Source of the DNA: an uncultured Sphingobacteriaceae bacterium
Lineage (GTDB): Bacteria; Bacteroidota; Bacteroidia; Sphingobacteriales; Sphingobacteriaceae
Reading direction: 5' to 3'
Length of the DNA stretch: 59,060 nt
NCBI GenBank assembly: GCA_946480915.1
Contig: CAMLLO010000027.1
Location: 1 to 59,060, forward strand
The position numbers were made by a program, and so were the translations under genes. Shown in pieces: positions 13,061 to 50,294 of this stretch (the first letter of the stretch is position 1; each line of letters begins with the position of its first letter). Below the pieces are notes generated by a model that was given only the letters and a program-made list of their open reading frames with translations, was not told the origin of the DNA and did no database searches.

Positions 13061-13177
13061 GCCTTGATGTTTTAACGTGGTATCAGAGGCTCATCGTAGG
13101 GGTAGTGTATTGATTGCTTTTTGAAATAGGAGCTATATCTAAAAAATGGGATGGTCTGGTGCAGAATTCAGATCAGC

Positions 13178-13627
13178 TTATAAACTCTTACCCATGCAGA
13201 TGCTATTGGGTATTTCAATATAGGGTGCAAAAGATGGAATTTTTGCAAAGCCATGTTTTTCATATAGTTTGATTGCCTCAGGTTGCTTAATACCTGTTTC
13301 AAGAACTGCTGTATCATAAAATAGCTCTTTGCCCCATCGGGTAAGTGCATCTATCATCTGGGATGCCACTCCAAAACCCCTGAAATAAGGATTCACATAC
13401 ATCCGCTTTATTTCTATGGTTCTTGAATTTATTTCCTTAAAACATCCACAGCCTACAGTGATGTTGCTTATTTGGGCAATTATCGCGGTGTCTAAAGCAT
13501 TTAGTTGGATATTTGCATCAAACCTATAGTCTGCCTGGCTATATCTCGTCGTTAAATCGTTGTCGAGCTCCAGGATTAGGTTTTTAAACCGTCTATCATC
13601 GCTATTCGTTCTAATTATCTCAATCAT
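13178..13627 (-). CDS. GNAT family N-acetyltransferase
   Basis: A 149-aa cytoplasmic acetyltransferase of the GNAT superfamily, which transfers acetyl from acetyl-CoA to an amine. The acetyl-CoA binding segment is VNPYFRGFGVASQMIDALTR (about residues 80-99), preceded by the strand TIEIKRMYV and followed by AVLETGIKQPEAIKLYEKHG, the usual C-terminal motif B. The substrate is unknown. A close paralogue of the same length is encoded at 32144-32593, with the shared phrase VGCGCFKEI before motif A. Its 3' end converges on the GH105 gene. Confidence 0.88.
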   Translation of the reverse strand: MIEIIRTNSDDRRFKNLILELDNDLTTRYSQADYRFDANIQLNALDTAIIAQISNITVGCGCFKEINSRTIEIKRMYVNPYFRGFGVASQMIDALTRWGKELFYDTAVLETGIKQPEAIKLYEKHGFAKIPSFAPYIEIPNSICMGKSL

Positions 13628-13829
13628 ATTTATTTATTCCATTGTTTTTAAGATTATTAGATGCATGTATTGTAAAAATACTGGATTAAATTGAAAATGA
13701 TTAATAAAATTGCCAGAGTTGTTAAATATTAACAAATAAATTGCAGTTTTATTGCAAAAACTTAGAAGAGTGTATGAATATGTTGACTTGGTTTGTTTTT
13801 TTGGGTTTATCAGCGTATTAAACTAGCTG

Positions 13830-35850: not shown

Positions 35851-36041
35851 ATGGAAAATCGGGACATACGCTGGATTCTCAAATTATAAGAAGGCTTTAT
35901 TGCAGCTTAAGAAGTTTATCGATAAGGGTGAACTAAAGTTGGAAGAGCTTGATACAGTCGTTGGAATATCCTTATGAATTGGCATGGAATGTTATTAAAG
36001 ACAATTATCAAAACCAAGTGTTTTATAAAAAGGAGGATTAA
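35851..36041 (+). pseudogene. Remnant of an HI0074-type nucleotidyltransferase substrate-binding protein gene
   Basis: Stepping between frames yields MENRDIRWI, then FSNYKKALLQLKKFIDKGEL, then YPYELAWNVIKDNYQNQ. These are recognisable blocks of the HI0074-like antitoxin/substrate-binding family (usually about 130-140 aa). At least two frame changes and a shortened middle and end show that it is broken. Its last bases overlap the 3' end of msrA on the other strand. Identification comes from memory of the family pattern. Confidence 0.6.
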
Positions 36042-36613
36042 AGCAACTCCGGTTTTATCTTTTCCTTAAACTTTTCTCCAAACTTAATCAGCTTAGGCTG
36101 GATAACGAAAGTACAATATGGTTGTCCGGAGTTTTGGTTGAAATAATTTTGATGATAATCTTCAGCCTTATAAAAATCAGAGACAGGAGAAACTTCAGTT
36201 ACGATTGGAGCATCATACACCAGATCTTTGGTTAACTCATCAATCATCTTGTTTGCTTTTTCCTTTTGCTCCTGTGTATGAAAAAAGATGACAGAACGAT
36301 ATTGAGTACCGATATCATTTCCCTGCCGGTTCAACGTGGTAGGATTATGGGTTTTGAAAAATATTAATAAAAGCTCTTCATAGGAAATTACATTGGGATC
36401 AAAATCTACCTGAATAACTTCGGCGTGACCTGTATTTCCGCTACACACCTGCTCGTAGGTTGGATTGTCTAGATTTCCGCCCATGTAGCCGGAAGATACA
36501 GTGGAAACACCTTTTAGCGATTGAAAGATTGCCTCTGTGCACCAGAAACAACCAGAGCCAAAGGTTGCAGATTCGTGATTTAAAGGCACTTTTTCATTTA
36601 TATTCTGTTCCAT
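36038..36613 (-). CDS. msrA: Peptide methionine sulfoxide reductase MsrA (chimeric: 5' end supplied by an integrative element)
   Basis: A 191-aa enzyme that reduces methionine-S-sulfoxide in proteins using thioredoxin. The catalytic Cys22 lies in FGSGCFWCTEAIF; other family blocks are SGYMGGNLDNPTYEQVCSGN, GHAEVIQVDFDP and NQNSGQPYC. The gene is intact. Its first 21 codons, however, lie inside the integrated element: the 20-bp repeat at 36534-36553, which encodes GCFWCT, also occurs at 50215-50234, where a second 5' end of the same length and similar sequence is stranded. The gene is therefore a fusion of element-borne start and chromosomal body, and its promoter is now inside the element. 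Confidence 0.93.
   Translation of the reverse strand: MEQNINEKVPLNHESATFGSGCFWCTEAIFQSLKGVSTVSSGYMGGNLDNPTYEQVCSGNTGHAEVIQVDFDPNVISYEELLLIFFKTHNPTTLNRQGNDIGTQYRSVIFFHTQEQKEKANKMIDELTKDLVYDAPIVTEVSPVSDFYKAEDYHQNYFNQNSGQPYCTFVIQPKLIKFGEKFKEKIKPELL
36534..36553. repeat. Left attachment core
   Basis: A 20-bp sequence identical to 50215-50234 in the same orientation. On the minus strand it is codons 21 to 27 of msrA (GCFWCT and two bases of the next Glu). Recombination between two copies would excise the element and restore the original msrA. Confidence 0.88.
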
Positions 36614-36636
36614 TTCTCTTGATTTTTAAGCAGATT

Positions 36637-36670
36637 TCTCAACTTTTTTCTCAACTATTTTTTCTCAACT
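36637..36670. promoter_or_regulatory. Three TCTCAACT repeats, putative integrase arm sites (left)
   Basis: TCTCAACT occurs at 36637-36644, 36649-36656 and 36663-36670 in direct orientation, 84-117 bp inside the left core. The same octamer occurs twice at the right end (50148-50167). Short directly repeated motifs near both ends are typical of arm-type binding sites of tyrosine recombinases. They also lie in the region that must hold the new msrA promoter. Confidence 0.6.
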
Positions 36671-36818
36671 CAAACATTTTTTTGCAATCTGTTGACAATA
36701 GGATGCATGATTTGACGCTTATCAAAAGTAATCATAAGGGTTAAACCCAAAGTCATTGAAAAGTTTTAAGTTGATTTATAGGTTGGTGTAATATATATTG
36801 GTATTATTATTTTTGTGC

Positions 36819-37163
36819 ATGACTGAAGAACAGATAATCCAAACATTTGGTATTATAGCCGGAAGTGGAGTTGTTAGTGCATTTACCACCTATTTTTTAA
36901 ATAGGGATTTTCATAAAGTGAACATTCAAAAAGTCAAAGCAGAGACTTTGAAATTGGTAAGTGAATCACAAAAAGGATTATATGAATCCTTATCGAAGGA
37001 GCGGGAATATTATAAAAATGAAATAAAGGATTTAAGAAATAGTACGGAGGATTTAGTTAAAATCAACGATTTAGAAAGAGAAAGATTAGAATTGATGCAG
37101 GAAAATCTAAAACTTTTAGAAGAAAAAGAAGTGCTACTACTGCAACAACTTAATAGCAGATAA
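36819..37163 (+). CDS. Membrane-anchored coiled-coil protein, hypothetical
   Basis: A 114-aa protein from the ATG at 36819 (a TTG at 36798 would extend it by seven residues). One membrane helix at the N-terminus (IIQTFGIIAGSGVVSAFTTY) is followed by a long charged coiled coil (ESLSKEREYYKNEIKDLRNS, then LMQENLKLLEEKEVLLLQQL). It is the first gene inside the left end of the element. Such small anchored coils are frequent in mobile elements; the function is unknown. Confidence 0.6.
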   Translation: MTEEQIIQTFGIIAGSGVVSAFTTYFLNRDFHKVNIQKVKAETLKLVSESQKGLYESLSKEREYYKNEIKDLRNSTEDLVKINDLERERLELMQENLKLLEEKEVLLLQQLNSR

Positions 37164-37171
37164 GGCAAGTC

Positions 37172-37417
37172 TTACATTTTAAATTTCTTGTTCAATATCC
37201 GGTCTTTGAGTTCTGCTTTCTTTTCTTCTTTAGTTTTTGGAATGCGTTTTTTCGGTTCAACATATAAAGCTTGTTTGGTAGCTGCTGATATTGTTCCTGT
37301 TTTTCGGTCTTTCCTAAGTTCAGACACTTCAGTACGTAATGCACGTAGTTCTTCCAGTATCAGATACATTATATCCGATGTACTTGGTGGTGTACTATGT
37401 GCATTATGAACCTTCAC
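37172..37417 (-). CDS. Small basic coiled-coil protein, hypothetical
   Basis: An 81-aa protein with a helical centre (DIMYLILEELRALRTEVSEL) and a lysine-rich C-terminus (KKRIPKTKEEKKAELKDRIL). It lies 4 bp after the 98-aa gene on the same strand, so the two are probably co-transcribed. It could bind nucleic acid or regulate the element; nothing proves this. Confidence 0.5.
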   Translation of the reverse strand: MKVHNAHSTPPSTSDIMYLILEELRALRTEVSELRKDRKTGTISAATKQALYVEPKKRIPKTKEEKKAELKDRILNKKFKM

Positions 37418-37421
37418 CTAT

Positions 37422-37718
37422 CTATTCAGATGAGGTAATAAAAGTTAAGGGATAATTGTGGTAGCTTCCAGTGTGATAACCATCGCTTGCATTCAGTCCT
37501 TTTACAACTGCTAAAAGGGCTGTAAAGGCTTCACTCTCATATATAGTAATTGTGTAACTATTGTCCAATTTACAGGTTAACCGACCAACTACTATTTCAT
37601 CGGAATTAATAAGGTCTGCTTCAATTTCTCCTGAGTCATATTCAGTAGATTCATCACAAAATAAATTGACCTTATCTAACCTAAACTGTTCACGTATTTT
37701 TGCTATGTTTTTTTCCAT
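37422..37718 (-). CDS. Hypothetical protein
   Basis: A 98-aa acidic protein without recognised domain, predicted beta-rich (EIEADLINSDEIVVGRLTCK, then NSYTITIYESEAFTALLAVV). It is the first gene of a two-gene unit running toward the left end of the element, starting beside the long non-coding region that may be the origin. Confidence 0.5.
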   Translation of the reverse strand: MEKNIAKIREQFRLDKVNLFCDESTEYDSGEIEADLINSDEIVVGRLTCKLDNSYTITIYESEAFTALLAVVKGLNASDGYHTGSYHNYPLTFITSSE

Positions 37719-38657
37719 AGCTATAAAAATATACTAAAAAAAAGTGATTTTCAAACAGGTTTTTTCTGAAAGTAGGTTCTGTAAATTTATAAATAAAAAG
37801 TGCGTTTAAACAGTTTAAACGAAGATTTTAACTTCAAAATGAATTGTAACTTTTGTGTAATATTTTGCTGCCTATAAAATAGCGTGGCGGAAAAATATTT
37901 ATAAATTTACAAAACCCACAAGGCGATACTTTTTTAATTTTGACTGGATTTCGTGGCATCTAAGCAATCATTATACAAAAAACGATGGTTATCGCCAAGA
38001 ATAATTTAAAAGCCTTAAATCGCCTTAATTTAAGTCCAATTTGGTGAGTTGAATAAATTTGAACATCAAATCGACTGCTTATTATAAAAATTGAAACAAA
38101 TAGTAATTCCTTCCTATATAGGAGTACTTAATTGCTTATCCATTACAAGCCCCGTTTCGATATAAAAAACATTTTTTAAGATGTACCATAACGGGTGAAT
38201 TCGGTACTTTTCTTCTCTTTTACCCCTATAATTAACCGTAATATAAGGCTAAAAACAACAATGTATAAGTTATGAAAATTGGGATTCTGATACTTTTTGC
38301 CGAACTTTTTGCCTTATGCGAAGCCGGAGGGGGGGTAATCCCCCAATTTTAAGTCAAATTTATCTTTGGAATTTTTGAAAAGTGCTGTACCGTATCCCGT
38401 TATTCAAAAAAAAAGTAATTATTATAAAATGAGCAGTGGGGAGCAAAGACAATCGGAAATAAAAATCTGAATTGAAATTTTAGCCCCCCCCCTTAAAAAT
38501 TTTTTAAAAAATTGGGATTTTGATATCAAAACCTAAAGGTTTAACCCTTACTTCGGGTCATATAGCTGTGGCAGCTCTTATTAATATATTTATAACTATT
38601 AATGTTATTATATAGAATTAGTTATTATAATTATTGATTACTATTATTTGATAATTA
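37719..38657. other. Long AT-rich non-coding region, possible replication origin of the element
   Basis: About 940 bp with no credible frame. It lies between the leftward pair of small genes and the rightward polymerase-like gene. It contains the inverted repeats at 37780-37911, a G-tract hairpin (seven G, TAAT, five C) at 38329-38344, a run of nine C near 38484 and a strongly AT-rich stretch (38580-38657) just before the polymerase-like gene. This is a typical position and make-up for an origin or transfer site, but the role is inferred. Confidence 0.45.
37780..37911. repeat. Nested inverted repeats
   Basis: TGTAAATTTATAAATA at 37780-37795 is the exact reverse complement of 37896-37911. Between them lies CGTTTAAAC-A-GTTTAAACG at 37803-37821, a perfect 9+1+9 palindrome. 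Candidates are replication initiator sites or a resolvase site. Confidence 0.7.
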
Positions 38658-40295
38658 ATGAAGGAATCATTTAGGTTTTATTCAAATTTTAAAGTTGTTG
38701 AGATTTTATTATCTAAAGTTTCAGGCATACAGAATATTGATTTTAAAAAGAATTACTATAAATATTTATATATAATCAACGTAATAATTTTTTATAAAAT
38801 AAAATATAGTGTAGAAGCTGATTTTAAAGGTGTACCTATTAATTCTGATTTACTTTCGGATATTATAAAGGTTCAGAATTCAAGTAAGTTTCTAAGAAAT
38901 TTGCGTGATTGGAAGTTAATCGAAATCGTTGGTCAATATGTTATAGACGTTCATTCTAACTATTATGATTTATGTAAGGAATTTCGGGATGATGAATTAT
39001 ATATAATTTATGTTAATCGTTCAGAGTATCCTCTATTAATTGACAGGTTAAATTTTGAGGCTGAAAATTCATTAACTGGAGTTACTAAAAAGCTTCATAA
39101 TATTTTATGTGATAATATTTCTTTATCTCCCGAAGGCATCGCTTATTTAGGAGAGGTCTTAAAAATACAACCGGAATATGTAAAATATAAAACCTCCAAA
39201 CTGAAAAACGATATTGAATACGAGGGTGAATTTATCATGAAAGGATTTAGAATCCACAGAAATGATTTAAAGCTCTTAGATATTTATAACAAAAAGTTTG
39301 ATACCGTTAGACCTATCCCCGGTAGTAGAATCTATTCAAACCTTACAAGTTTAAAAAGAGAGCATCGAAGATTTCTTTTATTTAATGGAAATCCCCTATT
39401 AATGACTGATATATCCTGTTCACAAATTTTGTTAAGTGTTGAAGTACTCTTAAAGCAATACTCAATAACTTCCGGTGTAGGCAGAAATGATATACCAGAG
39501 GATATTTTATTTTATAAAAGGCTTGCTGAAAATGGTTTGTTTTATGATTTTATGGCAGGCTTTTCAAAGCTTTGGATTACTATACCGAAAGAGAGAAGTA
39601 AATTTAAAAAGCAATTTTTTATCGATGTTTTCTTTTCCAAAGTTGCTAACTGGACTACTGATATTAAGACAGCTTTTCAACAAAGTTTTCCCACCGTTGC
39701 ACAATTGATAAATGATATTAAAAAAACCGGACATGGTGAATTTGCAGTTCAACTTCAAAAGTTTGAAGCTTCTATTATTATAGATAAAGCTGCTAAAGAA
39801 TTGATTAGGCAAAACAAGAAGGTTTTAACACTTCATGATGCAATTATAGCAGATAATGAAGAAACCTTAAAAATGGCTGAATCGATTATTGAACGTGAAT
39901 TAATCAAACTTAAAACCCCACTAAAACCCCATTTTAAGCGTGATAACGGATTACTATTACGTGACCTATATTCTCCTAAAGAGTCCGAGACAATTATTTT
40001 TCCTCAAATGAGTATTCAGATATTGGATTTTGAATTATTTATTAAGGAATTAGGGTATCTCAGTATTGAAGAATTTAGGAGTGTAGCGTATATATTGTCG
40101 GGATTTTTTGAAGGTTTCAATTTAATTCCAATTCATCACCGGGATTATGCTTTCAACGTAATAAGAAGGGGAAATCCTACTGTTGTAAGGTATGAATATT
40201 TTGGTAGTGATGAGGAGGAGGAGTATGAAGATGATGAGGATGTTGATGAAGATTATGAGGGTTATGGGAATGTTGATACCAATGAGAAAAATTAG
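38658..40295 (+). CDS. Divergent family A DNA polymerase-like protein, possible replication protein of the element
   Basis: A 545-aa protein. The middle and C-terminal parts show the three palm motifs of family A polymerases in order. Before motif A, RIYSNLTSLKREHRRFL precedes LLMTDISCSQ, giving Asp251 where Pol I has DYSQIE. A motif B-like segment at 313-326 (RSKFKKQFFIDVFF) supplies Arg and Lys. Motif C at about 389-396 (VLTLHDAI) gives His393-Asp394, like VHDE. No exonuclease domain is visible; the N-terminal 200 residues are unassigned. The last 30 residues are extremely acidic (DEEEEYEDDEDVDEDYEGYG). Placed after an origin-like region, it may copy or prime the element. Activity is inferred from motifs only. 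Confidence 0.6.
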   Translation: MKESFRFYSNFKVVEILLSKVSGIQNIDFKKNYYKYLYIINVIIFYKIKYSVEADFKGVPINSDLLSDIIKVQNSSKFLRNLRDWKLIEIVGQYVIDVHSNYYDLCKEFRDDELYIIYVNRSEYPLLIDRLNFEAENSLTGVTKKLHNILCDNISLSPEGIAYLGEVLKIQPEYVKYKTSKLKNDIEYEGEFIMKGFRIHRNDLKLLDIYNKKFDTVRPIPGSRIYSNLTSLKREHRRFLLFNGNPLLMTDISCSQILLSVEVLLKQYSITSGVGRNDIPEDILFYKRLAENGLFYDFMAGFSKLWITIPKERSKFKKQFFIDVFFSKVANWTTDIKTAFQQSFPTVAQLINDIKKTGHGEFAVQLQKFEASIIIDKAAKELIRQNKKVLTLHDAIIADNEETLKMAESIIERELIKLKTPLKPHFKRDNGLLLRDLYSPKESETIIFPQMSIQILDFELFIKELGYLSIEEFRSVAYILSGFFEGFNLIPIHHRDYAFNVIRRGNPTVVRYEYFGSDEEEEYEDDEDVDEDYEGYGNVDTNEKN

Positions 40296-40333
40296 CAGAC
40301 AGTCAAAAAAATTATGTTGAAGTATTTATAAGT

Positions 40334-40579
40334 ATGAGCATAATTTTAACAGACAACGAGATTGAAAAATTTATCAAAGAAGTCACTTTACTAAAAGTAA
40401 AACATCTTAAAATTCTTGATTTACACTCTTCAAAAGAGTTTTGGTCTATAGATATTTTTAAAAATTTATTGCGGTTTAGAATATCTAAAACCTTACCGGA
40501 AATTGTGAAATTGGATTTGATAGCTATTTGGTTGAAAACGCTAAGTGTGGATAGGGAATCATATATAAGAGAAGTTTAG
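40334..40579 (+). CDS. Small hypothetical protein downstream of the polymerase-like gene
   Basis: An 81-aa helical protein (NEIEKFIKEVTLLKVKHLKI, then RISKTLPEIVKLDLIAIWLK) 38 bp after the polymerase-like gene and probably in its operon. No domain was recognised. It may be a small partner of the replication protein. Confidence 0.5.
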   Translation: MSIILTDNEIEKFIKEVTLLKVKHLKILDLHSSKEFWSIDIFKNLLRFRISKTLPEIVKLDLIAIWLKTLSVDRESYIREV

Positions 40580-40580
40580 C

Positions 40581-41222
40581 TTAATTTTTGATACATCTAA
40601 CACTATATCCCCATCGACATTCAGCACCATCAAGGGTTGTTAGTTTTCTGCTACTTTCAATTTTTACTCTGTTGCACTCACCATCTATTTTTGTTGAAGA
40701 CCAGAATTCGGCACTTGATTGTATGTTTATCCTCTCTCCCTGACCCGTGCCGTTTCTGCTACCTAATGCCATTGCAGTAAATCCACTTGTATTACTTGCC
40801 GATTTGGAGGGATAACGCCAACCCTGTTTAGTAGTTAGTTTGTCAAAGGCTATTGTTTCCCCACCTAAATGATTAATTAAAATTTCCCATTCATCATTTG
40901 TCGGAACATGCCATCCATCAGGGGCTAAACCTCTTTCATCTCTAACCGCATAAGAATTGTAAAATTTACCAAGTTCTGGATGACTTTCCCATACATAGCA
41001 CCATGCAGGTTTTCTGTTCAAGTTAGCCATATACCAATCGTAATCGCTCTTTGCTTCTTCAATATCGTCACCATTTTTAAAAGTTATTACATCAAGGTTT
41101 TTTAACATCCAGATTTGGTCTCCAATTTCAACTTCTTCATTTTCACTTTTGAGTATCGTAGTTGTAAATGAAGAAGAAATAAAAAATATAGTAAAAAAAA
41201 GTATCAAGTATTTTTTTAACAT
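40581..41222 (-). CDS. Exported FISUMP-domain protein
   Basis: A 213-aa protein with a signal peptide (ILFFTIFFISSSFTTTIL) and the Fibrobacter succinogenes major paralogous domain (about 30-213): QIWMLKNLDVITFKNGDDIE, then GLAPDGWHVPTNDEWEILIN, FTAMALGSRN and the terminal GYSVRCIKN. Such domains occur on surface-exposed Bacteroidota proteins; the function is not known. It is part of a run of three exported proteins on the minus strand of the element. Confidence 0.8.
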   Translation of the reverse strand: MLKKYLILFFTIFFISSSFTTTILKSENEEVEIGDQIWMLKNLDVITFKNGDDIEEAKSDYDWYMANLNRKPAWCYVWESHPELGKFYNSYAVRDERGLAPDGWHVPTNDEWEILINHLGGETIAFDKLTTKQGWRYPSKSASNTSGFTAMALGSRNGTGQGERINIQSSAEFWSSTKIDGECNRVKIESSRKLTTLDGAECRWGYSVRCIKN

Positions 41223-41243
41223 ACTGGTGAGTTTAGCTGTTGG

Positions 41244-42167
41244 TTAATCGAAATTATTTGAGCCACTTTCCCATATCACATTCCCATTCAAATCTTTTCT
41301 ATATCTTTTTATTTCCTTACCAGAGGTATCAAATTGGATATAATCATCACCTTGCATAAGTTCGACAATTCCATTTTTATAATCTGTATTTTCAAGACCC
41401 GAAGATTGATATAATGGTAGTATGATTTCCGTACCACCCCTATCAATATATCCAATTAGTTCTTTATTCCAGCCGTTACCTGCTGGTGTACTATTCTCAA
41501 CTCTACAAAGCCCTTCCTCATTGAATCCATGTATCTTTTCGTATTTGGGACGAATAATTTCATTTCCGTTAATATCAATTAAGCCGTACCTTTTACCTAA
41601 ATCTCCCCATTTCTCAAACACCCAAATTACACCATCAACACTTTTCTCTATGCCATCATATTGAGGGGATACCACTTCTTCTCCGGTTAGCAATCTTACT
41701 AAGCCGTAGCCCGCATCAGTTTTAACTTTAATCAAGTCAGTATTTTGGAGGTACTTGATGTGATTACTTTCCCCAACTTCATGATATTTAAATTCAACGA
41801 TTTCTACCCCGGCTTTATCGACTATACCAGTGCAACAATTATTAGAAGCTACTACCGGGAATGTACCATCAAAATAAATTGAAGTATATTCTTTTATTGG
41901 GATAATTGTTTTGCCAGACTTATCTATTATTCCTAAAATTCCATTTACTCCAACTTTTGCAAAGCCTTTTTGGAAATGCTCAACATAATCGTATTTAAGC
42001 GGGATGACCTCTTGTTCTTTTGAATCAATAAATCCCCATTTGCCATTTTTACCCTTAACAGCCCGTAAGCCTTCAATCTCTTGCTCTATTTCTGTGTATT
42101 TATTTTCTTTGCATGATGTATTAAGTGCCACCAAAGTCACCAATATCAAATAATAAAATTTTCTCAT
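41244..42167 (-). CDS. WG-repeat lipoprotein
   Basis: A 307-aa lipoprotein (lipobox LNTSC) made of about six WG repeats, for example GKNGKWGFIDSKEQEVIPLK, ILGIIDKSGKTIIPIKEYTS and RYGLIDINGNEIIRPKYEKI. WG proteins form repetitive beta structures and are thought to mediate protein binding. It lies 21 bp upstream of the FISUMP gene on the same strand. Confidence 0.85.
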   Translation of the reverse strand: MRKFYYLILVTLVALNTSCKENKYTEIEQEIEGLRAVKGKNGKWGFIDSKEQEVIPLKYDYVEHFQKGFAKVGVNGILGIIDKSGKTIIPIKEYTSIYFDGTFPVVASNNCCTGIVDKAGVEIVEFKYHEVGESNHIKYLQNTDLIKVKTDAGYGLVRLLTGEEVVSPQYDGIEKSVDGVIWVFEKWGDLGKRYGLIDINGNEIIRPKYEKIHGFNEEGLCRVENSTPAGNGWNKELIGYIDRGGTEIILPLYQSSGLENTDYKNGIVELMQGDDYIQFDTSGKEIKRYRKDLNGNVIWESGSNNFD

Positions 42168-42197
42168 TTGGTTTTTTAAAAAGTATTTTTTGCTTAA

Positions 42198-42452
42198 TTA
42201 GTATCCTGCCATGCTTCGAGTTACTCTATCTTCAAGAGCTTGTTTTTCACCTGCAACTCTAACAGCTTCGTCATGTGCGATTCGCTTCATTTCTTCTCTG
42301 GAAGCTTCTTCTTTTGCTTTCTGAATTTTTTCCTGTTGTTCTAATGCTTTGGCAACTTCTTGCTGAATTCTCTTATCAGATTCAAAGTAATTACAGGAAG
42401 TAACCGTAGTAAGTAGGGCTAAGAAACAGGCATTTAGGAGTAACTTTTTCAT
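42198..42452 (-). CDS. Small coiled-coil lipoprotein
   Basis: An 84-aa lipoprotein starting at the ATG at 42452 (MKKLLLNACFLALLTTVTSC), which directly begins the signal peptide. The frame continues upstream to 42536, but that start would bury the signal. The mature part is one charged helix (QQEVAKALEQQEKIQKAKEE). It is the first of three genes for exported proteins and is divergent from the XRE regulator. Confidence 0.65.
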   Translation of the reverse strand: MKKLLLNACFLALLTTVTSCNYFESDKRIQQEVAKALEQQEKIQKAKEEASREEMKRIAHDEAVRVAGEKQALEDRVTRSMAGY

Positions 42453-42529
42453 TGAATATAAATTTAGGTTTTCAATTATAAGGCAAATTTGCCACAAGTC
42501 AAAATCAAAAATACTGTAAGCTTTGGCAT

Positions 42530-42754
42530 GTGCCACAGCATCGGGATATAAAAGCTATTGAAACTCTTGCTAAAAATGTAAGGAAGTATAGAACTGAAAA
42601 GGATATGACTATGGAGGCTTTGGCTAATACTACAGGAATAGAATATAGTCAAATAAGCCGAATTGAGAGAGGCTTAATCAATACAAGTGTATCAGTAATA
42701 TTTTCTATTGCTAATGCACTTGAGATAGACCCGGGTAAGCTTTTAGAAAAATAA
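42530..42754 (+). CDS. XRE-family helix-turn-helix regulator
   Basis: A 74-aa DNA-binding protein consisting of a single HTH domain: MTMEALANTTGIEYSQISRI, then GLINTSVSVIFSIANALEID. The start is a GTG at 42530; no in-frame ATG gives a complete domain. It is divergent from the lipoprotein run and convergent with the serine recombinase gene, and is a likely regulator of element genes. Confidence 0.8.
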   Translation: MPQHRDIKAIETLAKNVRKYRTEKDMTMEALANTTGIEYSQISRIERGLINTSVSVIFSIANALEIDPGKLLEK

Positions 42755-42787
42755 ATTTTTAGTCAAATCTTCTCGCAGCATGTAGAA

Positions 42788-43408
42788 TTAAGATGCGTTT
42801 AATAAAGAGTGCTTACTCGCTAAATTCTTTACCTTTTGTATTGTACGGGTTGATGCACCAGTAGCAGCACTTGTTTCACGGAGTGTTAAACCTTTTTTTA
42901 ATTTTTGAATAATCTTTTGAGATTTTTCTTTTTTTAAAAATTCTAACTGTGATTCATTAGTACCGGAAGGTCTACCTAAAGTGCCACCATTCTGAACATA
43001 AACTAACCTTCCAACTGTTGTTCTTTCTTTTATGTTTTCTAATTCCATCGCATATAATCCCGTCATAACAGTGGATACCAAATCCCAAATTGGGTTTTTC
43101 TTGCCATTTGGTCTTGATTGTAACCCGATATTTCTCACTACGACATTTACTTCTTTTGAATCTAACCATATCAGATTATTGATTACATCTCCCGTATTCC
43201 TTCCAATTCTGCTGAACTCTTCTATAACCAGCTCTGTTACTTTCCCACTCTCAACTAATTCACAAAGTACTTTTCCTTTTTCTCTCTCTTTAAGGGCTTT
43301 TGAACCTGATGTTTTATCAAGCAAAACTAAATCATACTTTTCTTTATCATCTGTGAACCTTAAACCAGATTGTTGCAAAGTTGAAACTCGGTTATATTTA
43401 ATTTTCAT
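42788..43408 (-). CDS. Serine recombinase (resolvase family)
   Basis: A 206-aa site-specific recombinase. The catalytic Ser9 lies in YNRVSTLQQSG, and the second conserved block is VIEEFSRIGRNTGDVINNLI (the SRxGRN motif). The C-terminal helix-turn-helix is GLTLRETSAATGASTRTIQK. It has the size of resolvases and invertases rather than large serine integrases. Its role may be to resolve dimers of an excised circular form or to invert a segment; the perfect palindrome at 37803-37821 is one candidate site. Confidence 0.88.
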   Translation of the reverse strand: MKIKYNRVSTLQQSGLRFTDDKEKYDLVLLDKTSGSKALKEREKGKVLCELVESGKVTELVIEEFSRIGRNTGDVINNLIWLDSKEVNVVVRNIGLQSRPNGKKNPIWDLVSTVMTGLYAMELENIKERTTVGRLVYVQNGGTLGRPSGTNESQLEFLKKEKSQKIIQKLKKGLTLRETSAATGASTRTIQKVKNLASKHSLLNAS

Positions 43409-43753
43409 GATTTACTTTAAATCTATGATTAAAAATACATCAAATAATTTGTTTTTGCAAGTAATTGTTAAAAAAAAATCAGTAATGTTGAGGTACTTTT
43501 ACTTATGATTAATCTTACCACTGTTAGCTGAATTTAGCCATACATCTTTTGTGCATTACGAAGTAATTGGTGGACTTTGAGGGTAATTATTAGTAATCCT
43601 AAAAGTTAGGGCTGCGCATGCTAAAAAACGCATCATCAACTCTATTCATTTAAAAATTTTAACTTAGTAAATTATATTTCACTTTGCTAAAAATATTAGT
43701 ATAATTGTAAAATCTATTCCATATTATACTATAAGGCAACATACGTGTTCAAT
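43409..43753. other. Promoter region of the four-gene cassette
   Basis: About 340 bp with no gene. It separates the serine recombinase (leftward) from the helicase cassette (rightward) and must contain the cassette promoter. No clear consensus promoter or operator could be fixed. Confidence 0.4.
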
Positions 43754-45007
43754 ATGCCTGATTTTAAATTCAGATTACCATCAATAAATGATTTAACAGA
43801 TTTGCAACAGATTGCCTTTTATGAAAATCGACCTATCCTTGTAACTGGAGGTCCGGGAAGCGGTAAAACAGTCGTTACCATCTTTCGATTTCTCAGGCAA
43901 ATAACGGAAAATCAAAATGCAATCTTTTTTACATTCAATCGCACGTTAATGTCATCGATACGAGGGACTCTTCGACAGCAAGCGGAGATAAGATTGCCAA
44001 GTTTAAAACCGGAGGAGATTGAAGAAATAATTGATACCAAAATTACCTCTATGTTTGAGTGGTATGGGGCAGCTTTTAGTACGATGTTAAGTGAGGATTC
44101 AGACGAAACTATTGATGAAAACTTTAGCATGCACCGTACTCTAAGGTTAAAAAACAAAAGATTTAGCGAGCTTTTCATTGACGAATCTCAGGATTTACGT
44201 CCCGGAATTGTGTCGGCAGCATATAAAATTGGAGAAAAAGTTACATGTGGTGCTGATAGAGCACAGGATATTCAAGGACATTATACAGGACCAGCAGATG
44301 ATATGATTTTTGCGATTTTAAATCAAGAACGTACAACTGTAAGGCAGGGTCTAACATCAAACTTTAGAAACACAAAAGAAATATTTGAATTTGCCAGAAA
44401 GTTTGTCCCCGAAGACCAAACTGTTCAGCAGATAGATACATCCGATTTTCCAGCAGGAGATAGCCCTGAAATTATTGGAGATTTGGATGAAAACCAACAA
44501 TTCGCTTTGATTCTGCAAATTATTCAAGATAACCCAAATAGTAATATTGGCATTTTATTACACACTAAGCAAGAAATTTTTGACTTAAAAGGGTATCTCG
44601 AAAAAAATGGATACTCATGCGCTAAGGATGTAGAAGAATCAAAATCATTCTCTTATTATTATAGCAATATGCCTTTTGGTGATAGGTTGATAATGGAGAA
44701 AAAACTGAGAACACCATTTATATTGTCCTTTGAGTCATGTAAGGGTTTAGAGTTTGATATTGTAATTATGGGAAAGTTTGAGGATGCAGATTGGGCTTTA
44801 ACAAAATTTAAAAAAAATAACGGGAATGTAGAATATGACGCTAATGGAAACCCGAGATGTTGGGCTACAATAAATCACTATTACGTTGCTGCAACGAGAG
44901 CCCGTAGTAATTTATATATTTTATACCATAACAAACCTGATGTTCTGGCTTTTTGGGAAGATGCAAGTGATAATACAATATTCGATGATGAAGACCTTCC
45001 TTTTTAA
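43754..45007 (+). CDS. Compact superfamily 1 (UvrD/Rep-like) helicase-type ATPase, cassette gene 1
   Basis: A 417-aa protein from the ATG at 43754; a GTG at 43745 would add three residues. All ATPase motifs of an SF1A helicase are present: Walker A TGGPGSGKT near residue 35, motif Ia FFTFNRTLM, Walker B LFIDESQD near 142, motif III TCGADRAQDIQG, motif IV TSNFRNT, motif V ESCKGLEFDIVIMG and motif VI YVAATRARSNLYI. It is much shorter than UvrD or Rep (about 670-720 aa), so the accessory 1B/2B domains are reduced or missing. It is the first of four tightly spaced genes and probably acts as the motor or sensor of the set. Confidence 0.85.
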   Translation: MPDFKFRLPSINDLTDLQQIAFYENRPILVTGGPGSGKTVVTIFRFLRQITENQNAIFFTFNRTLMSSIRGTLRQQAEIRLPSLKPEEIEEIIDTKITSMFEWYGAAFSTMLSEDSDETIDENFSMHRTLRLKNKRFSELFIDESQDLRPGIVSAAYKIGEKVTCGADRAQDIQGHYTGPADDMIFAILNQERTTVRQGLTSNFRNTKEIFEFARKFVPEDQTVQQIDTSDFPAGDSPEIIGDLDENQQFALILQIIQDNPNSNIGILLHTKQEIFDLKGYLEKNGYSCAKDVEESKSFSYYYSNMPFGDRLIMEKKLRTPFILSFESCKGLEFDIVIMGKFEDADWALTKFKKNNGNVEYDANGNPRCWATINHYYVAATRARSNLYILYHNKPDVLAFWEDASDNTIFDDEDLPF

Positions 45008-45021
45008 TAGAAATTAATATA

Positions 45022-46818
45022 ATGGCAAAAGAAAGAAAGAATAAGATAAAGGAAGTCAAGGAGAAGGCTAAAGATATAAATGCAGAACTTCCTTTGGACA
45101 TGCCCGCAAATTCGGAAGAGGGAACTATCCATTTTCCTCCTCAGACAATAGAGCTGGAAATAACAAATTATAACAGCGATGAGACAATTGAAAAAAAGGA
45201 AGAATTCGTATCTAATGTAGTTGGAACTTTTTCTAAGGAGAAACCAATATTTTTACAAATACATACAGGAAATGTATACACAATTTTTGGTTCAGGCATC
45301 ATATCTCCTGCAAATTATGTAACAAATCGGGCGTTCACTGATTTCCAGACGATAATTGCTCAAGGCTTCATACTATCTAATGGCATAATATCTAGTGGGG
45401 AAGAACCATTTTTGTTAATAGAATTAAATTTTACTAATGAAGAGCTAAATCATGTCGCTATTAATGAGTGTTATGGCTTTTATTTTAAACCGATTCCTAT
45501 CTCCAGAATTATCCGCATCTATTCAGGAACAGACAAGAGTAAAAATGAAATCGTATCTACTGCAATATCGAATGATGGAGGAATTATACCAAAGAGATTA
45601 GTTAAGGGATATTATCCGAAGGGACTGGCAAAAGAAAATTTTAAGAAATATGATGGTATTGGAAACAATCAGGACTTCAGTGATAAACTTATACAGTATG
45701 ATAAAATTTTAGGCACATTCGCATATATAAAGAATTTTTCAATCCTTACTGCAAATAGAACAAATGCTTTAGCATCGTTACCTGACCATTATTTCTATGC
45801 GATACAGGCATTAAATAATAATGGATTATTAGGGCATCTAAAAAACGAAAGAGCTGTAGCATTTTATCGTCAACTTTTTCAGCCTAAGGATGGCATCGAA
45901 AGTCCCTTGTTGAAATGGTTGTTTAATAGGATTAACACACAACATAATTTTACTGATGAGGATATTCAGCAATTCGGAGTACTCCTGTTTAGTGAAGCAA
46001 AATCCAAGGAATTTGCCCAACAATCAAAAGTCATCTTAGAAAGTTTAAGTAAAAGCATCGAACGAAAAAAAGCTATTGCGCAAATTCTACTTTTGAATGA
46101 TGCAGACAAGTTTTATCTATACCTCTTTGCATTTTTACGCTTATATGGCAACGTCAATAACGAAAGCAAATCTATTTCGAGAATAGATATACCAGAACTA
46201 TCTACTTCATATAGTGAATATGTCTTTTCAGTTTTAGGATACTTTTACGGATACAAAAGTTTAAGAAATTTTGATGACAGGTTAAATTTGAAAGATAAGG
46301 TATTCAGTGAATATGTAGGACCATCAAACAGATTTCCAATTAAGTTCGAATTAGATACAGAATTCGACTATATCACGATTGAATCTGTATATTCTAATGT
46401 GTTTAATTCTGGAAGCACTCAAATACATACCTCTTTTATAAAAGCAGATAGTTTGGAGCGGCAACTTGTAATTAAACCAAGAGACATGCCTACTGATTAT
46501 ACTTTCTCTTTTAATTTAGTTTGTGGCAAATTTTATTATTTATTTAAGAGAAAGGTAGTGGTTGATGAGTTGACTCCAAAATTAAATAGTCTTCCGTCTC
46601 AAGTACCAGTGATATCTGAAGTAGGTATTCTTTGTTATAGGAGCAAAATTCCATTTAGTTATATAAGCTTTGGTGAATTGTTAAAGAATCCTACACGGAT
46701 ATCTTATTTCATTCATTTTAATAAGGAAGACATAATTGCGGCTGTAAAAAGTAATAAAATAAATGGACCAGAGCTTTTACAAAGAATGGAATTAAGTAAT
46801 CTACATAAAGAATTCTGA
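45022..46818 (+). CDS. Unknown 598-aa protein, cassette gene 2
   Basis: No known family was recognised. The first ~50 residues are charged (AKERKNKIKEVKEKAKDINA). A beta-rich part follows (PIFLQIHTGNVYTIFGSGII, FLLIELNFTNEELNHVAINE), then a helical middle (about 270-400) and a second beta-rich part near 430-560. There is no signal peptide, membrane helix, Walker motif or obvious nuclease motif. It starts 14 bp after the helicase gene, and its stop overlaps the next start, so it is certainly part of the operon. It is a candidate scaffold, sensor or effector. Confidence 0.75.
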   Translation: MAKERKNKIKEVKEKAKDINAELPLDMPANSEEGTIHFPPQTIELEITNYNSDETIEKKEEFVSNVVGTFSKEKPIFLQIHTGNVYTIFGSGIISPANYVTNRAFTDFQTIIAQGFILSNGIISSGEEPFLLIELNFTNEELNHVAINECYGFYFKPIPISRIIRIYSGTDKSKNEIVSTAISNDGGIIPKRLVKGYYPKGLAKENFKKYDGIGNNQDFSDKLIQYDKILGTFAYIKNFSILTANRTNALASLPDHYFYAIQALNNNGLLGHLKNERAVAFYRQLFQPKDGIESPLLKWLFNRINTQHNFTDEDIQQFGVLLFSEAKSKEFAQQSKVILESLSKSIERKKAIAQILLLNDADKFYLYLFAFLRLYGNVNNESKSISRIDIPELSTSYSEYVFSVLGYFYGYKSLRNFDDRLNLKDKVFSEYVGPSNRFPIKFELDTEFDYITIESVYSNVFNSGSTQIHTSFIKADSLERQLVIKPRDMPTDYTFSFNLVCGKFYYLFKRKVVVDELTPKLNSLPSQVPVISEVGILCYRSKIPFSYISFGELLKNPTRISYFIHFNKEDIIAAVKSNKINGPELLQRMELSNLHKEF

Positions 46819-48221
46819 TGAGTCCAGACGATTTATTAGAAAGTATAGCGTCTTTAGACAATGATAGTTTGATATCATTTCTGGAAGAGGAAAGTAATAG
46901 TGTTAGATTATGCTTCTTGCAAGTCGTTCCATCGCAGGTAAATAAAAAAGTTTTCGCAAGGGTTATGAGTACTCTTGCGCAAAAATTGACACCAGAAAAT
47001 ATATCTACCAATGGGATTCAATCTTTATATACTCATTTAGCTTTTTATTTTAAGAATGCTAACATGGCACAGTACGTTGATACATGTACTACACATATCA
47101 ACGATAATATCTTTAGAAAACGATTGTCCGCATGGTTGCATTATAAAAGATATAATACATATAGTTTACATATTACCGAATTTGAAAATTACCTCACAAA
47201 ATTAAGTAATGCAATTCTTGACGATGAAGATGATTATACATATGAAATTCTAAGTGATTTAAACGAGTATAAATTATCATTACCTCAAGAAATTAGAACC
47301 CAAGTCTTAGATTTTTTTGAAGATGAAAGTTTAGCAGAAAGGTATCCTATACTGAAACAATTAAAGGATGACTATCTCCATGTAATTCCAGATGTAGAAG
47401 TAGAGGATTATAGAGGTAAAATTCATATGCCATCAATTGCAATGGAGAAGCTCTTTAATGACCACTTTATTGACTATATAAAGGAAAATCAATTGTTTGG
47501 GTATTCTATGCCATATGTAACCGAGAATATTATAAAAAAAGGACAAGCGGATTTTGACTTAGATTTTGGCGAATTAAAAGCATCACAGGTTGTAAAATTA
47601 TATTGTTATTGCAATATGAGAATGCACTTTTTTTCTTCTATAAGTTTATACGAACGGAGCGAAATAGTTAGTTTGTTTTATAAAACCAATGGGAAAATAA
47701 AATTCATCGATATAGGCAGTGGACCGGGAACATGCGGGTTAGCTTTCGCAGACCATATTCATCAAGAGACAGGTGTTGGTGCAGTTTTTGATTATTTTGG
47801 TGTGGATACATCCGTTGCAATGAATAATCAGGCTGAGGAAATGATGAAAAATTCAGAATTTTCTTCTACTACAATGCGTTTTTGTTCTGATATTGAAGCA
47901 ATAACAATGGAAGACTTAAAACAGGCTTCATGTATAATAATAAATACGTGTTATGTTTTTGCAAGCGAGGATTTACCGATAAAAGTATTAGCAAATTACA
48001 TTAACAAACTGAGTAAAAATTTTCCATATGTGCCTAAGTACCTGCTTTTCCAAAATCCAATTAATGATTTTTTGAATAGGAGGTACGAAGAGTTTAAAAC
48101 ACATTTATCAGCATATGAAATTACTTATACAAAAAAAAGCAATGTTCACTTTTCATATCAAAGAGGTGCGTCAGGATTTAGCAAAGAGAGAAAAGTGCTT
48201 TTTGAAATATTGAAATTTTAG
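46818..48221 (+). CDS. SAM-dependent methyltransferase-like protein, cassette gene 3
   Basis: A 467-aa protein. The first ~290 residues are helical and unassigned. A class I methyltransferase fold follows, with motif I FIDIGSGPGTCGLAF (Asp298 to Gly304) and an acidic end of strand 2 at YFGVDTS (Asp330). The usual motif IV of amino-methyltransferases (NPPY-like) is not seen; the corresponding strand reads CIIINTCYVFA. This argues against an N6-adenine or N4-cytosine DNA methylase and leaves a tRNA, rRNA or other substrate open. The motif resembles the Rsm22-like group by eye. The ATG overlaps the stop of the gene before by one base. Confidence 0.75.
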   Translation: MSPDDLLESIASLDNDSLISFLEEESNSVRLCFLQVVPSQVNKKVFARVMSTLAQKLTPENISTNGIQSLYTHLAFYFKNANMAQYVDTCTTHINDNIFRKRLSAWLHYKRYNTYSLHITEFENYLTKLSNAILDDEDDYTYEILSDLNEYKLSLPQEIRTQVLDFFEDESLAERYPILKQLKDDYLHVIPDVEVEDYRGKIHMPSIAMEKLFNDHFIDYIKENQLFGYSMPYVTENIIKKGQADFDLDFGELKASQVVKLYCYCNMRMHFFSSISLYERSEIVSLFYKTNGKIKFIDIGSGPGTCGLAFADHIHQETGVGAVFDYFGVDTSVAMNNQAEEMMKNSEFSSTTMRFCSDIEAITMEDLKQASCIIINTCYVFASEDLPIKVLANYINKLSKNFPYVPKYLLFQNPINDFLNRRYEEFKTHLSAYEITYTKKSNVHFSYQRGASGFSKERKVLFEILKF

Positions 48222-48230
48222 ATTAAAGCT

Positions 48231-48857
48231 ATGTATGATTTATTTAATCCAGCTCCATTGGTGGATGCAAATGAAGCTACCAGAAATATAAATGATACTT
48301 CTGAAATAAATGGTCTTAAATATATTCCTCATTTTATTACTAAAGAAGAGGAAGCAAATCTAACGGTTTCCATTAATTCAGAGGAATGGTTATCTGATAT
48401 TAAGCGTAGAGTTCAGCATTATGGTTATAAGTACGACTATAAGGCGAGAAGAATTAACTATGACATGTATCTAGGTGCATTACCACCGTGGGCATCTACA
48501 ATTGCAAAACGCCTGTGTGCGCAGAATCTTATAGAAGATGAGCCAGACCAACTAATTGTCAATGAATACATACCGGGGCAAGGAATTGCAAACCATGTTG
48601 ATTGTGAGCCTTGTTTCGGTGAGACCATAATTTCTTTAAGTCTCAATTCTTTTTGTGTAATGGACTTTATAAATTTACAAACTAAGCAGAAACTCGAAGT
48701 CTTGTTAGAGCCTTGTAGTTTAGTTGTTATAAATGGAGAAGCAAGGTATCGTTGGAGTCATGGTATCGCACAGAGAAAGAGCGAAACATTTAATAATATG
48801 AATTTTAAACGTAATTTAAGACTTTCGCTAACATTCCGAAAAGTCATTTTGAAATGA
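48231..48857 (+). CDS. AlkB-family 2-oxoglutarate/Fe(II) dioxygenase, ALKBH8-like, cassette gene 4
   Basis: A 208-aa oxidative demethylase or hydroxylase. Iron ligands are His122 and Asp124 in YIPGQGIANHVD and His177 in YRWSHGIA. The 2-oxoglutarate/nucleic-acid motif is RLSLTFR (Arg197, Arg203). Segments RRVQHYGYKYDY, EPDQLIVNEYIPGQGI, ETIISLSLNS, VMDF and SLVVINGEARYRWSHGI resemble the AlkB domain of ALKBH8, which hydroxylates a wobble uridine side chain in tRNA, more than they resemble E. coli AlkB. It starts 9 bp after the methyltransferase gene, which is notable because ALKBH8 itself fuses such a domain to a tRNA methyltransferase. The substrate here is unproven. Confidence 0.88.
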   Translation: MYDLFNPAPLVDANEATRNINDTSEINGLKYIPHFITKEEEANLTVSINSEEWLSDIKRRVQHYGYKYDYKARRINYDMYLGALPPWASTIAKRLCAQNLIEDEPDQLIVNEYIPGQGIANHVDCEPCFGETIISLSLNSFCVMDFINLQTKQKLEVLLEPCSLVVINGEARYRWSHGIAQRKSETFNNMNFKRNLRLSLTFRKVILK

Positions 48858-48915
48858 TACCATTAAAATATTTTCTAGGTACAATGAAATTTTAAAATAC
48901 TTTGTTGAAGTAATT

Positions 48916-50109
48916 TTAAAACCTCGCATCAACCTTCCCTGTAATAACTTTCTTTTGTAAACCTTTTTGATATCTTCTAGTTGTACTCTCTAATACGTGC
49001 CTTAACCTTTTTTGTAATTGTGGTATTGTCTCACCATCTTCCAAAGCATAGTATGAACTAGAATGTTTAAGAGCGTAAAATTTCAGGGTATCGGGAATAT
49101 CATATTCATCCCTAAATTTTCTCCATTTTTGCCCAATAGCTCCATAAGCAAGTCTTTCAGCACGTGGTTTGTTATTGATACCTATTAAATAAAATTCTTC
49201 TGGATACCCTTCCATATGACTTTCAATTACTTTGGCAAATTCAGTATCAAATTGAAACCTTGCTTCATCACCATTTTTAGTTTTATGTGGTGGGAGGGTT
49301 AGTACTTTGGTATCAGGGTTATAATCTTCAATCTGAATTTTAAGTTGTTCTTCTAAGCGTATATTATAGCTATATAGTAGCTTTGAACTTAGATGAAGGT
49401 TAAACCATCTTGGTTCTGCTTTCAAAAGCTTCCTTACCAGCTCTAATTCTTCTTCTTCATATATTTTAAAATGAGTTGAATCGTTGCGGGTGTTTTTAAA
49501 TTCAGTTTTTGCTATGCCATTATAGTCATCAACTATTTTTTCTTCTTTTAAGAATATCCAAAACATCTTTATGACATCACGATAAGTATTATAGGTTTCC
49601 TTACCCCAACTTTTTAAATTGGTGTATGTATCAAAAAACGTTTTAAAATCAGTATAAGTAAATGACGAAGGTTTGCGGAACTGGTACTTATTGGCAATTA
49701 GCCATTCACTAAAATGTTTGGAGAGTACAGCTTTGATTGATTCATATCTGTTTTTAGAAACTGCTTTTGTATCAAATTGGGCTTTACGTATATCAACATA
49801 GTGAGCAATGCAATCACTTATATTGGTAGCGGAAGTAAGAATTTTCTTATCAGTAGGGATGAAGGGAGACCATCCTTTTTTAATTAATTCGATGTATGAA
49901 TCTGCAAGTATTTCAGCATTCTTAAAAAGTTGGCGCTCTGACAGCTTTCCAGTTAAAGTATAGCCGTCTCTTATTACTTTATTTTTACCAGTAGCAGGAT
50001 TTGGGAAATTAAAGTAAAGATGTGTTTTGGCTTTTGTATCAGGTGCAGGTTGATATAGTTTAAACTTGTATCCATCCCATTCTCTAATAATTTGTGACCT
50101 TTTTTCCAT
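48916..50109 (-). CDS. Tyrosine recombinase (integrase of the element)
   Basis: A 397-aa phage-type integrase. The N-terminal arm-binding part (about 1-110) and SAM-like core-binding part (about 110-210) precede the catalytic domain. Catalytic residues by eye: Arg in LYSYNIRLEEQLK, Lys in PPHKTKNGDE, box II FYALKHSSSYYA, His in LRHVLESTTRRYQ and the nucleophile Tyr in the same segment. Box II has Lys where HxxR usually has Arg, a variation I recall from other Bacteroidota integrases. The gene starts about 105 bp from the right core, with two putative arm sites between. It should catalyse integration into msrA. Confidence 0.9.
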   Translation of the reverse strand: MEKRSQIIREWDGYKFKLYQPAPDTKAKTHLYFNFPNPATGKNKVIRDGYTLTGKLSERQLFKNAEILADSYIELIKKGWSPFIPTDKKILTSATNISDCIAHYVDIRKAQFDTKAVSKNRYESIKAVLSKHFSEWLIANKYQFRKPSSFTYTDFKTFFDTYTNLKSWGKETYNTYRDVIKMFWIFLKEEKIVDDYNGIAKTEFKNTRNDSTHFKIYEEEELELVRKLLKAEPRWFNLHLSSKLLYSYNIRLEEQLKIQIEDYNPDTKVLTLPPHKTKNGDEARFQFDTEFAKVIESHMEGYPEEFYLIGINNKPRAERLAYGAIGQKWRKFRDEYDIPDTLKFYALKHSSSYYALEDGETIPQLQKRLRHVLESTTRRYQKGLQKKVITGKVDARF

Positions 50110-50147
50110 TGTCTAATTGTGATTGGTAAGACAAAGTAAATAAAAAA

Positions 50148-50167
50148 TCTCAACTATTTTCTCAACT
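50148..50167. promoter_or_regulatory. Two TCTCAACT repeats, putative integrase arm sites (right)
   Basis: TCTCAACT at 50148-50155 and 50160-50167, spaced 12 bp as at the left end, 48-67 bp inside the right core and directly upstream of the integrase gene. They may also regulate integrase expression. Confidence 0.6.
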
Positions 50168-50186
50168 ATATACTGGAAACGTGGGT

Positions 50187-50294
50187 TTAAACCTGTTTAG
50201 GCAAAGGGTATACTTCTGTGCACCAGAAACAACCTGCACCAAATGTTGCCGTTTCGGTATGTAAAGAAGAAGATGCGTTAATATCATTATTCAT
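50187..50294 (-). pseudogene. msrA: Displaced native 5' end of msrA
   Basis: A 35-codon frame starting at the ATG at 50294. Residues 13-27 read TETATFGAGCFWCTE, aligned residue for residue with the intact MsrA (both have 21 residues before the catalytic Cys22). After the shared 20-bp core the frame runs into element DNA and stops at 50187. This is the original start of the chromosomal msrA, cut off by insertion; it keeps the original promoter. Confidence 0.9.
50215..50234. repeat. Right attachment core
   Basis: A 20-bp sequence identical to 36534-36553, same orientation, within the displaced msrA 5' stub and encoding GCFWCT on the minus strand. Similarity to the left end continues past the core into the msrA codons on the right side only, as expected for two homologous gene starts. 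Confidence 0.88.

Follow-up and report, generated by a model that had tools for sequence, protein, structure and literature searches.

DarTG couples a DNA ADP-ribosyltransferase toxin to a macro-domain antitoxin, and CmdTAC is made up of a toxin, an antitoxin and a chaperone, without the helicase, methyltransferase and AlkB that characterize the locus described here. Host systems centred on an ADP-ribosylglycohydrolase (ARG) domain have been placed in predicted conflict operons (PMC9503650). We analysed a 59,060-nt stretch of DNA from an uncultured Sphingobacteriaceae bacterium (GCA_946480915.1, contig CAMLLO010000027.1; hereafter the window), which carries a four-gene cassette encoding a helicase (HEL), a protein joining an ADP-ribosyltransferase-like domain to an ADP-ribosylhydrolase-like one (ART-ARG, or ART), a methyltransferase-like protein (MT) and an AlkB-type dioxygenase (ALKB). 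HEL, ART-ARG, MT and a fourth enzyme (AlkB or DUF1848) stay together in inheritance while their surroundings, often with defence genes, change. The cassette occurs in scattered members of the Bacteroidota and is probably an undescribed defence system. The reading we prefer, with a rough probability of 0.43, makes it a mobile anti-invader system that puts chemical marks on nucleic acid and has its own eraser for one of them.

Four genes and their products

The cassette consists of four plus-strand open reading frames (ORFs) separated by 14, -1 and 9 bp, the spacing that an earlier note on this DNA had described. The first (43754..45007, +) encodes a compact superfamily 1 (SF1; UvrD/Schlafen-type) helicase of 417 aa (PF13361, 8.1e-13; PF09848, 1.2e-9). 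Its start at 43754 is the first ATG, and an in-frame GTG lies at 43745. The motifs GGPGSGKT, DESQD, GADRAQ, SNFRN, SCKGLEFD and VAATRA, whose roles we take to be those usual in SF1 enzymes, form a complete set, in agreement with the complete but compact SF1 motor claimed earlier, and most of their positions do not differ among the 13 type I copies aligned. Promoter-like sites occurred at chance level and no terminator-like sites were found.

The second gene (45022..46818, +) encodes a 598-aa protein in which an ART-like domain (residues 76-194) is fused to an ADP-ribosylhydrolase-like domain (residues 218-417). The earlier note saw no recognised family here. The protein does belong to one, since matches to PF22546 (2CompART; 5.2e-26, 91.6 bits) and PF22545 (2CompARG; 5e-21, 76 bits) both exceed the Pfam cut-off of 27. 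The ART domain is predicted to adopt a DarT/KptA-like fold, that of nucleic-acid ADP-ribosyltransferases, and the hydrolase-like domain matches the ADP-ribosylhydrolase (ARH/DraG) fold. By sequence, the DarT Pfam profile did not match the protein at 0.1, comparison with solved structures gave nothing or chance matches, and Pfam found no macro domain among the four cassette proteins.

A KptA-like fold would also suit the main rival, a tentative possibility in which the cassette repairs RNA (or DNA) after attack by phage or rival toxins: HEL would open the substrate, AlkB and/or DUF1848 undo alkylation or other damage to bases, ART take off a 2'-phosphate or act on ends like KptA, and MT protect ends or reset marks. 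However, DarT matches the ART fold at least as well as Tpt1 does, a Pfam scan detected no ligase among the four window proteins and no fifth gene is common to the loci. Moreover, ART and MT are fast-evolving, which better fits conflict.

The third gene (46818..48221, +) encodes MT, with a helical N-terminus and a predicted Rsm22/METTL17-like fold (residues 195-467) as its best fold match. The S-adenosylmethionine (SAM)-binding domain begins near residue 290 behind helices, much as the earlier note had it (a SAM-binding protein with a ~290-aa helical N-terminus). All methyltransferase-domain matches in Pfam fell below cut-off, and the Rsm22 Pfam profile gave no match at 0.1. In PADLOC, MT matched C3a159 (3.1e-15), whose prefix 'C3a' presumably stands for type III CRISPR accessory. 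The fourth gene (48231..48857, +) encodes ALKB, a 2-oxoglutarate/Fe(II) dioxygenase (PF13532, 2.1e-20). Its best solved relative is ALKBH8 (3thp, 2.8e-27) and its HxD...H...R site is intact, with H122, D124, H177, R197 and R203 unchanged across all 13 type I copies aligned, so that the earlier designation as ALKBH8-like holds.

A conserved block with a varying fourth enzyme

When the 7,993 best candidates of a protein search were scored, 27 proved to be relatives of the second protein, which is counted among them. Genome contigs scanned with this protein alone yielded no locus, and with an alignment of 26 relatives yielded 12, from Chitinophaga, Mucilaginibacter, Flavobacterium, Chryseobacterium, Sphingobacterium, Pedobacter and one Bacteroidetes metagenome-assembled genome. 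All four genes are present in 12 of these 12 loci, and the set is therefore not a chance assembly; in three Pedobacter loci ALKB lies upstream and divergent, yet is retained. PF22546 was found in 9/400 genomes (order of G003), 4/395 (phylum), 2/396 (order of G001) and 3/296 (order of G004), and PF22545 in 3/395, in sets that overlap and include known carriers. Together with the window and the 12 loci, eight further ones from these scans and from G010, which has a second cassette copy among the 12 genomes of the loci, bring the total to 21.

HEL adjoins ART in 21/21 loci. A gene stands in the MT place after ART in 20/21, the contig of L042 stopping within ART. The MT profile match is weak in L027, L028, L031 and L041 (E 0.0009-0.006, filters off), where the MT call rests on position and length, supplemented by sub-cut-off methyltransferase-domain matches (L027, L028, L031) and by mutual likeness (L027, L028, L041). 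Comparison of the flanks of 16 loci (172 ORFs, including three type II MT genes) revealed a common run of neighbours only in Chryseobacterium L005 and L007, and no other flank family in more than 4 of the 16. No relatives of the window ART were found in viral contigs, plasmids or phages; for the L027 ART, plasmids and phages gave none, and for MT, phages gave none.

AlkB is present in 19/21 loci; DUF1848 replaces it in 2, and both occur in 1 of those 19. An ALKBH8-like AlkB is found in the window, L001-L012, L029 (two copies) and L032. In L027, L028, L041 and L042 the AlkB gene comes first and belongs to another lineage, ALKBH2/3-like as judged by L027, the one tested (ALKBH3, 5.3e-40). In place of AlkB, L040 has DUF1848, as does G682 (L030/L031 at two contig ends), where searching the available 57 kb with a profile built from 38 AlkB proteins gave no AlkB at E <= 1. 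The DUF1848 proteins carry a CxxxCxxC motif (CPHECVYC and CNHLCAYC; CYTGCQYC in L002), which we take to be of the radical-SAM type.

In a tree of 38 sequences of our choice, all ALKBH8-like AlkB proteins separate from the rest with support 1.00. Type I and three cyanobacterial sequences are set apart at 0.84 (type I alone, 0.61), and the type II clade (0.93) lies amid housekeeping AlkB of the same phylum. AlkB is generally common (18/21 genomes). We set aside an ALKBH8/Trm9-type wobble pathway because MT folds, in prediction, like Rsm22/METTL17 and the fourth enzyme varies; the tRNA side-chain building suggested earlier is weakened accordingly.

Two ALKBH8-like genes (L110, L111) stand alone, with no MT or HEL within ~5 kb, and the former (L110:5093-5662) sits amid an array of repeated small genes, toxin/immunity-like in look. 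A second, diverged cassette (L029) occurs in a Pedobacter genome that also has L010, and it holds two AlkB genes.

The MT profile, run over 21 genomes, matched the cassette in 8/8 that bear ART (twice in G010) and in 0/13 others. This co-occurrence also speaks for hypermodification, in which MT would methylate, AlkB or DUF1848 oxidise or activate, and ART add ADP-ribose, leaving host DNA or tRNA with a bulky mark. C-H activation is common to AlkB and radical-SAM chemistries, and the hydroxylation carried out by ALKBH8 is on a methylated side chain. MT-AlkB is nevertheless found without significant ART (see below) and the conserved unit has no nuclease to read such a mark; we regard this possibility as quite unlikely. 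The only further MT-profile match in the 21 genomes was the C-terminus of a 1,419-aa protein of a Chitinophaga genome (G001; L109:4129-8388), in which an AAA_11/AAA_12-type SF1 helicase precedes the cassette-type MT domain. A nuclease-like motif was seen by eye ahead of that domain.

Defence neighbourhoods, cyanobacterial plasmids and the carrier element

To return to the anti-invader reading, 85 ORFs beside 11 cassettes matched 230 PADLOC families at 1e-10 (many describing one protein; L007 excluded as a near-copy of L005). The control, 75 ORFs drawn from 10 other regions of these genomes, matched 2 families, both borderline (best 3.6e-11); an eleventh region was too short and yielded no ORFs. 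Thus the enrichment of defence genes that the earlier note proposed to look for is observed. Single scans at 1e-20 of 30 of the 85 ORFs, which we picked by size and likelihood, gave matches beside at least 6 of the 11 cassettes: LmuB (L001), a reverse transcriptase that is perhaps not a defence gene (L002), RmrA (L004), HamB and a type I methylase (L006), LmuA and LmuB (L010), and QatA and PtuA (L011).

A tblastn search with MT in plasmids gave three Picosynechococcus records (L112, L113, L114). In 3/3, the gene after MT encodes a cassette-type AlkB (profile E 2e-88 to 4e-90) and the gene before it a WYL or ATP-binding protein, whose N-terminus, as judged by L112, the one tested, matches the bacterial Pnkp kinase (6.3e-6). 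The HEL and ART profiles had no significant match at these loci (best 0.063), and no relatives of the cyanobacterial MT were found in viral contigs. On pAQ6, cas10, a cmr3-type gene and cmr4 of a type III-B CRISPR locus (L114) stand upstream of the MT-AlkB run, in which MT domain (profile E 3.5e-42) and AlkB (3.5e-90) are neighbours and the 292-aa MT covers only the C-terminal half of the MT profile. At its MT-AlkB locus, the PCC 7003 plasmid carries a RAMP gene, and pAQ5 instead a reverse-transcriptase gene. We dropped the idea that the 488-aa gene of the CRISPR locus encodes a CARF protein, as the one search made did not support it. Cassette-type AlkB occurs in five plasmid records and MT adjoins it in three; the pairing is thus recurrent, and not strict, because the Roseobacter and Streptomyces records are without MT.

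The window's cassette is carried by an AT-rich, 13,681-bp element in the region 36534-50294, which agrees with the mobile element of the earlier note. GC per kb is 0.28-0.35 within the element and 0.39-0.43 outside it in 13 of 14 kb (0.34 in the remaining one). A direct-repeat search found 20 identical bases at 36534..36553 and 50215..50234 within a 52-base repeat (83%), and these attachment-type repeats are likely the left and right ends of the element. The left copy lies inside an intact msrA (36038-36613, -; PF01625, 3.6e-68). The right one lies within a 5' piece of an msrA truncated to 35 codons (50187..50294, -), with a stop shortly past its GCFWCTE motif, and the right end of the element also has a tyrosine integrase gene (48916..50109, -; PF00589, 5.5e-10). 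The simplest reading is that the element integrated into msrA and supplied a new 5' end to the gene.

Carriage on an integrative element, together with the DarTG-type look of an ART fused to a hydrolase-like domain, could point to a toxin-antitoxin addiction module whose sole role is to stabilise its carrier. This we hold to be very unlikely, as four genes including a helicase exceed what addiction needs and the neighbourhoods are rich in defence genes.

The element also encodes a serine resolvase in its interior (42788..43408, -; PF00239, 5.1e-15) and a 545-aa protein (38658-40295) with no match in Pfam, PADLOC or NCBIfam at E 0.1. Its insertion point falls in the catalytic-motif codons of msrA, with the 35-codon piece left over, and TTGAGAA-type repeats were seen by eye close to both ends.

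Proposed mode of action and comparison with known systems

In the anti-invader reading, HEL would load on invader (or damaged) nucleic acid and expose single strand, on which ART would use NAD+ to put ADP-ribose. MT would add a methyl to nucleic acid, RNA being the probable substrate. The methyl, or a like base lesion, would be stripped by the fourth enzyme, whether AlkB (of two lineages), DUF1848 or both, so that host molecules are cleared. The fused hydrolase-like domain, whose canonical metal motifs are missing, would work as a reader or as a brake, not as a classical eraser. MT and AlkB would form one writer-eraser pair, and ART and its fused domain an altered version of such a pair. That both pairs (ADP-ribose, and methyl with AlkB and/or the radical-SAM-type DUF1848 as eraser) are united in one helicase-fed immune operon of a new kind, the methyl half being shared with a type III CRISPR locus, is a more doubtful proposal.

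Several observations weigh against this reading. GD(A/S)xG, (S/T)DD(S/T) and D(S/T)D(S/T) are missing in 60, 59 and 57 of 60 sequences of the cassette family (present in 0, 1 and 3), compared with 10, 9 and 9 of 10 canonical ADP-ribosylhydrolases that have them. The catalytic residue of DarT is a glutamate, and a conserved counterpart was not evident in ART, in a register taken from a non-significant hhalign alignment with two DarT proteins (prob. 1.5); residue-level placement of the active site failed. Foldseek alone gave no match for the ART-ARG model at E <= 0.001. Rsm22-like enzymes act in ribosome assembly. The type I cassette L002 has a DUF1848 ORF (12696-13643) directly after ALKB on the same strand; a clean exchange was dropped on this account, and AlkB and DUF1848 are not simple stand-ins since L002 holds both. 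ALKBH8-like AlkB also occurs without MT in 2/5 plasmid records and at two chromosomal places, and the kinase neighbour in cyanobacteria fits both RNA repair and defence.

Taken together, the earlier interpretation stands as regards co-occurrence of the genes, defence context and a nucleic-acid modification pathway, to which the parts point; its protein of unknown family falls and its tRNA wobble side-chain idea is weakened. From the varying fourth enzyme and the reuse of MT-AlkB in a type III CRISPR locus follows a prediction that a single assay could test: MT would write a base mark, which the fourth enzyme would remove. If true, the Pfam '2-component' ART family would gain its full gene context.

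The ART and ARG domains are already known as Pfam families. The second protein has no match in PADLOC-DB 2.0.0 (2023), which for that protein bears out the earlier statement that no known defence system has this set. We recognised no publication describing the gene set, although a prior description in print is possible; searches on 2CompART returned unrelated papers only and on DUF1848 none, and no precedent for ADP-ribosylation with AlkB-type base chemistry in one immune operon was found in searchable sources.

The cassette resembles DarTG in the DarT-like predicted fold of ART and in the coupling of a reversing-type domain to it. It differs in that this domain is ARH-like, not macro, lies on one chain with ART and is without metal motifs, in that ART has no significant profile match to two DarT proteins, and in the additional HEL, MT and AlkB. 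Like CmdTAC, whose target is mRNA, it would place an ADP-ribosyltransferase in anti-phage defence. The ARG-centred systems share with the cassette an ARG domain in predicted conflict operons, but are without a coupled ART and often have phosphatases; the words 'methyltransferase' and 'AlkB' are absent from that text (PMC9503650). HEL matches the GajB profiles of PADLOC (best 3.4e-16), which reflects general SF1 likeness, and Gabija identity was set aside, as no GajA match was among those listed for the ten window proteins scanned. The type III-B CRISPR locus of pAQ6 shares with the cassette a homologous MT domain next to AlkB, and differs from it in having a shorter MT, a WYL-domain gene ahead of it and neither HEL nor ART.

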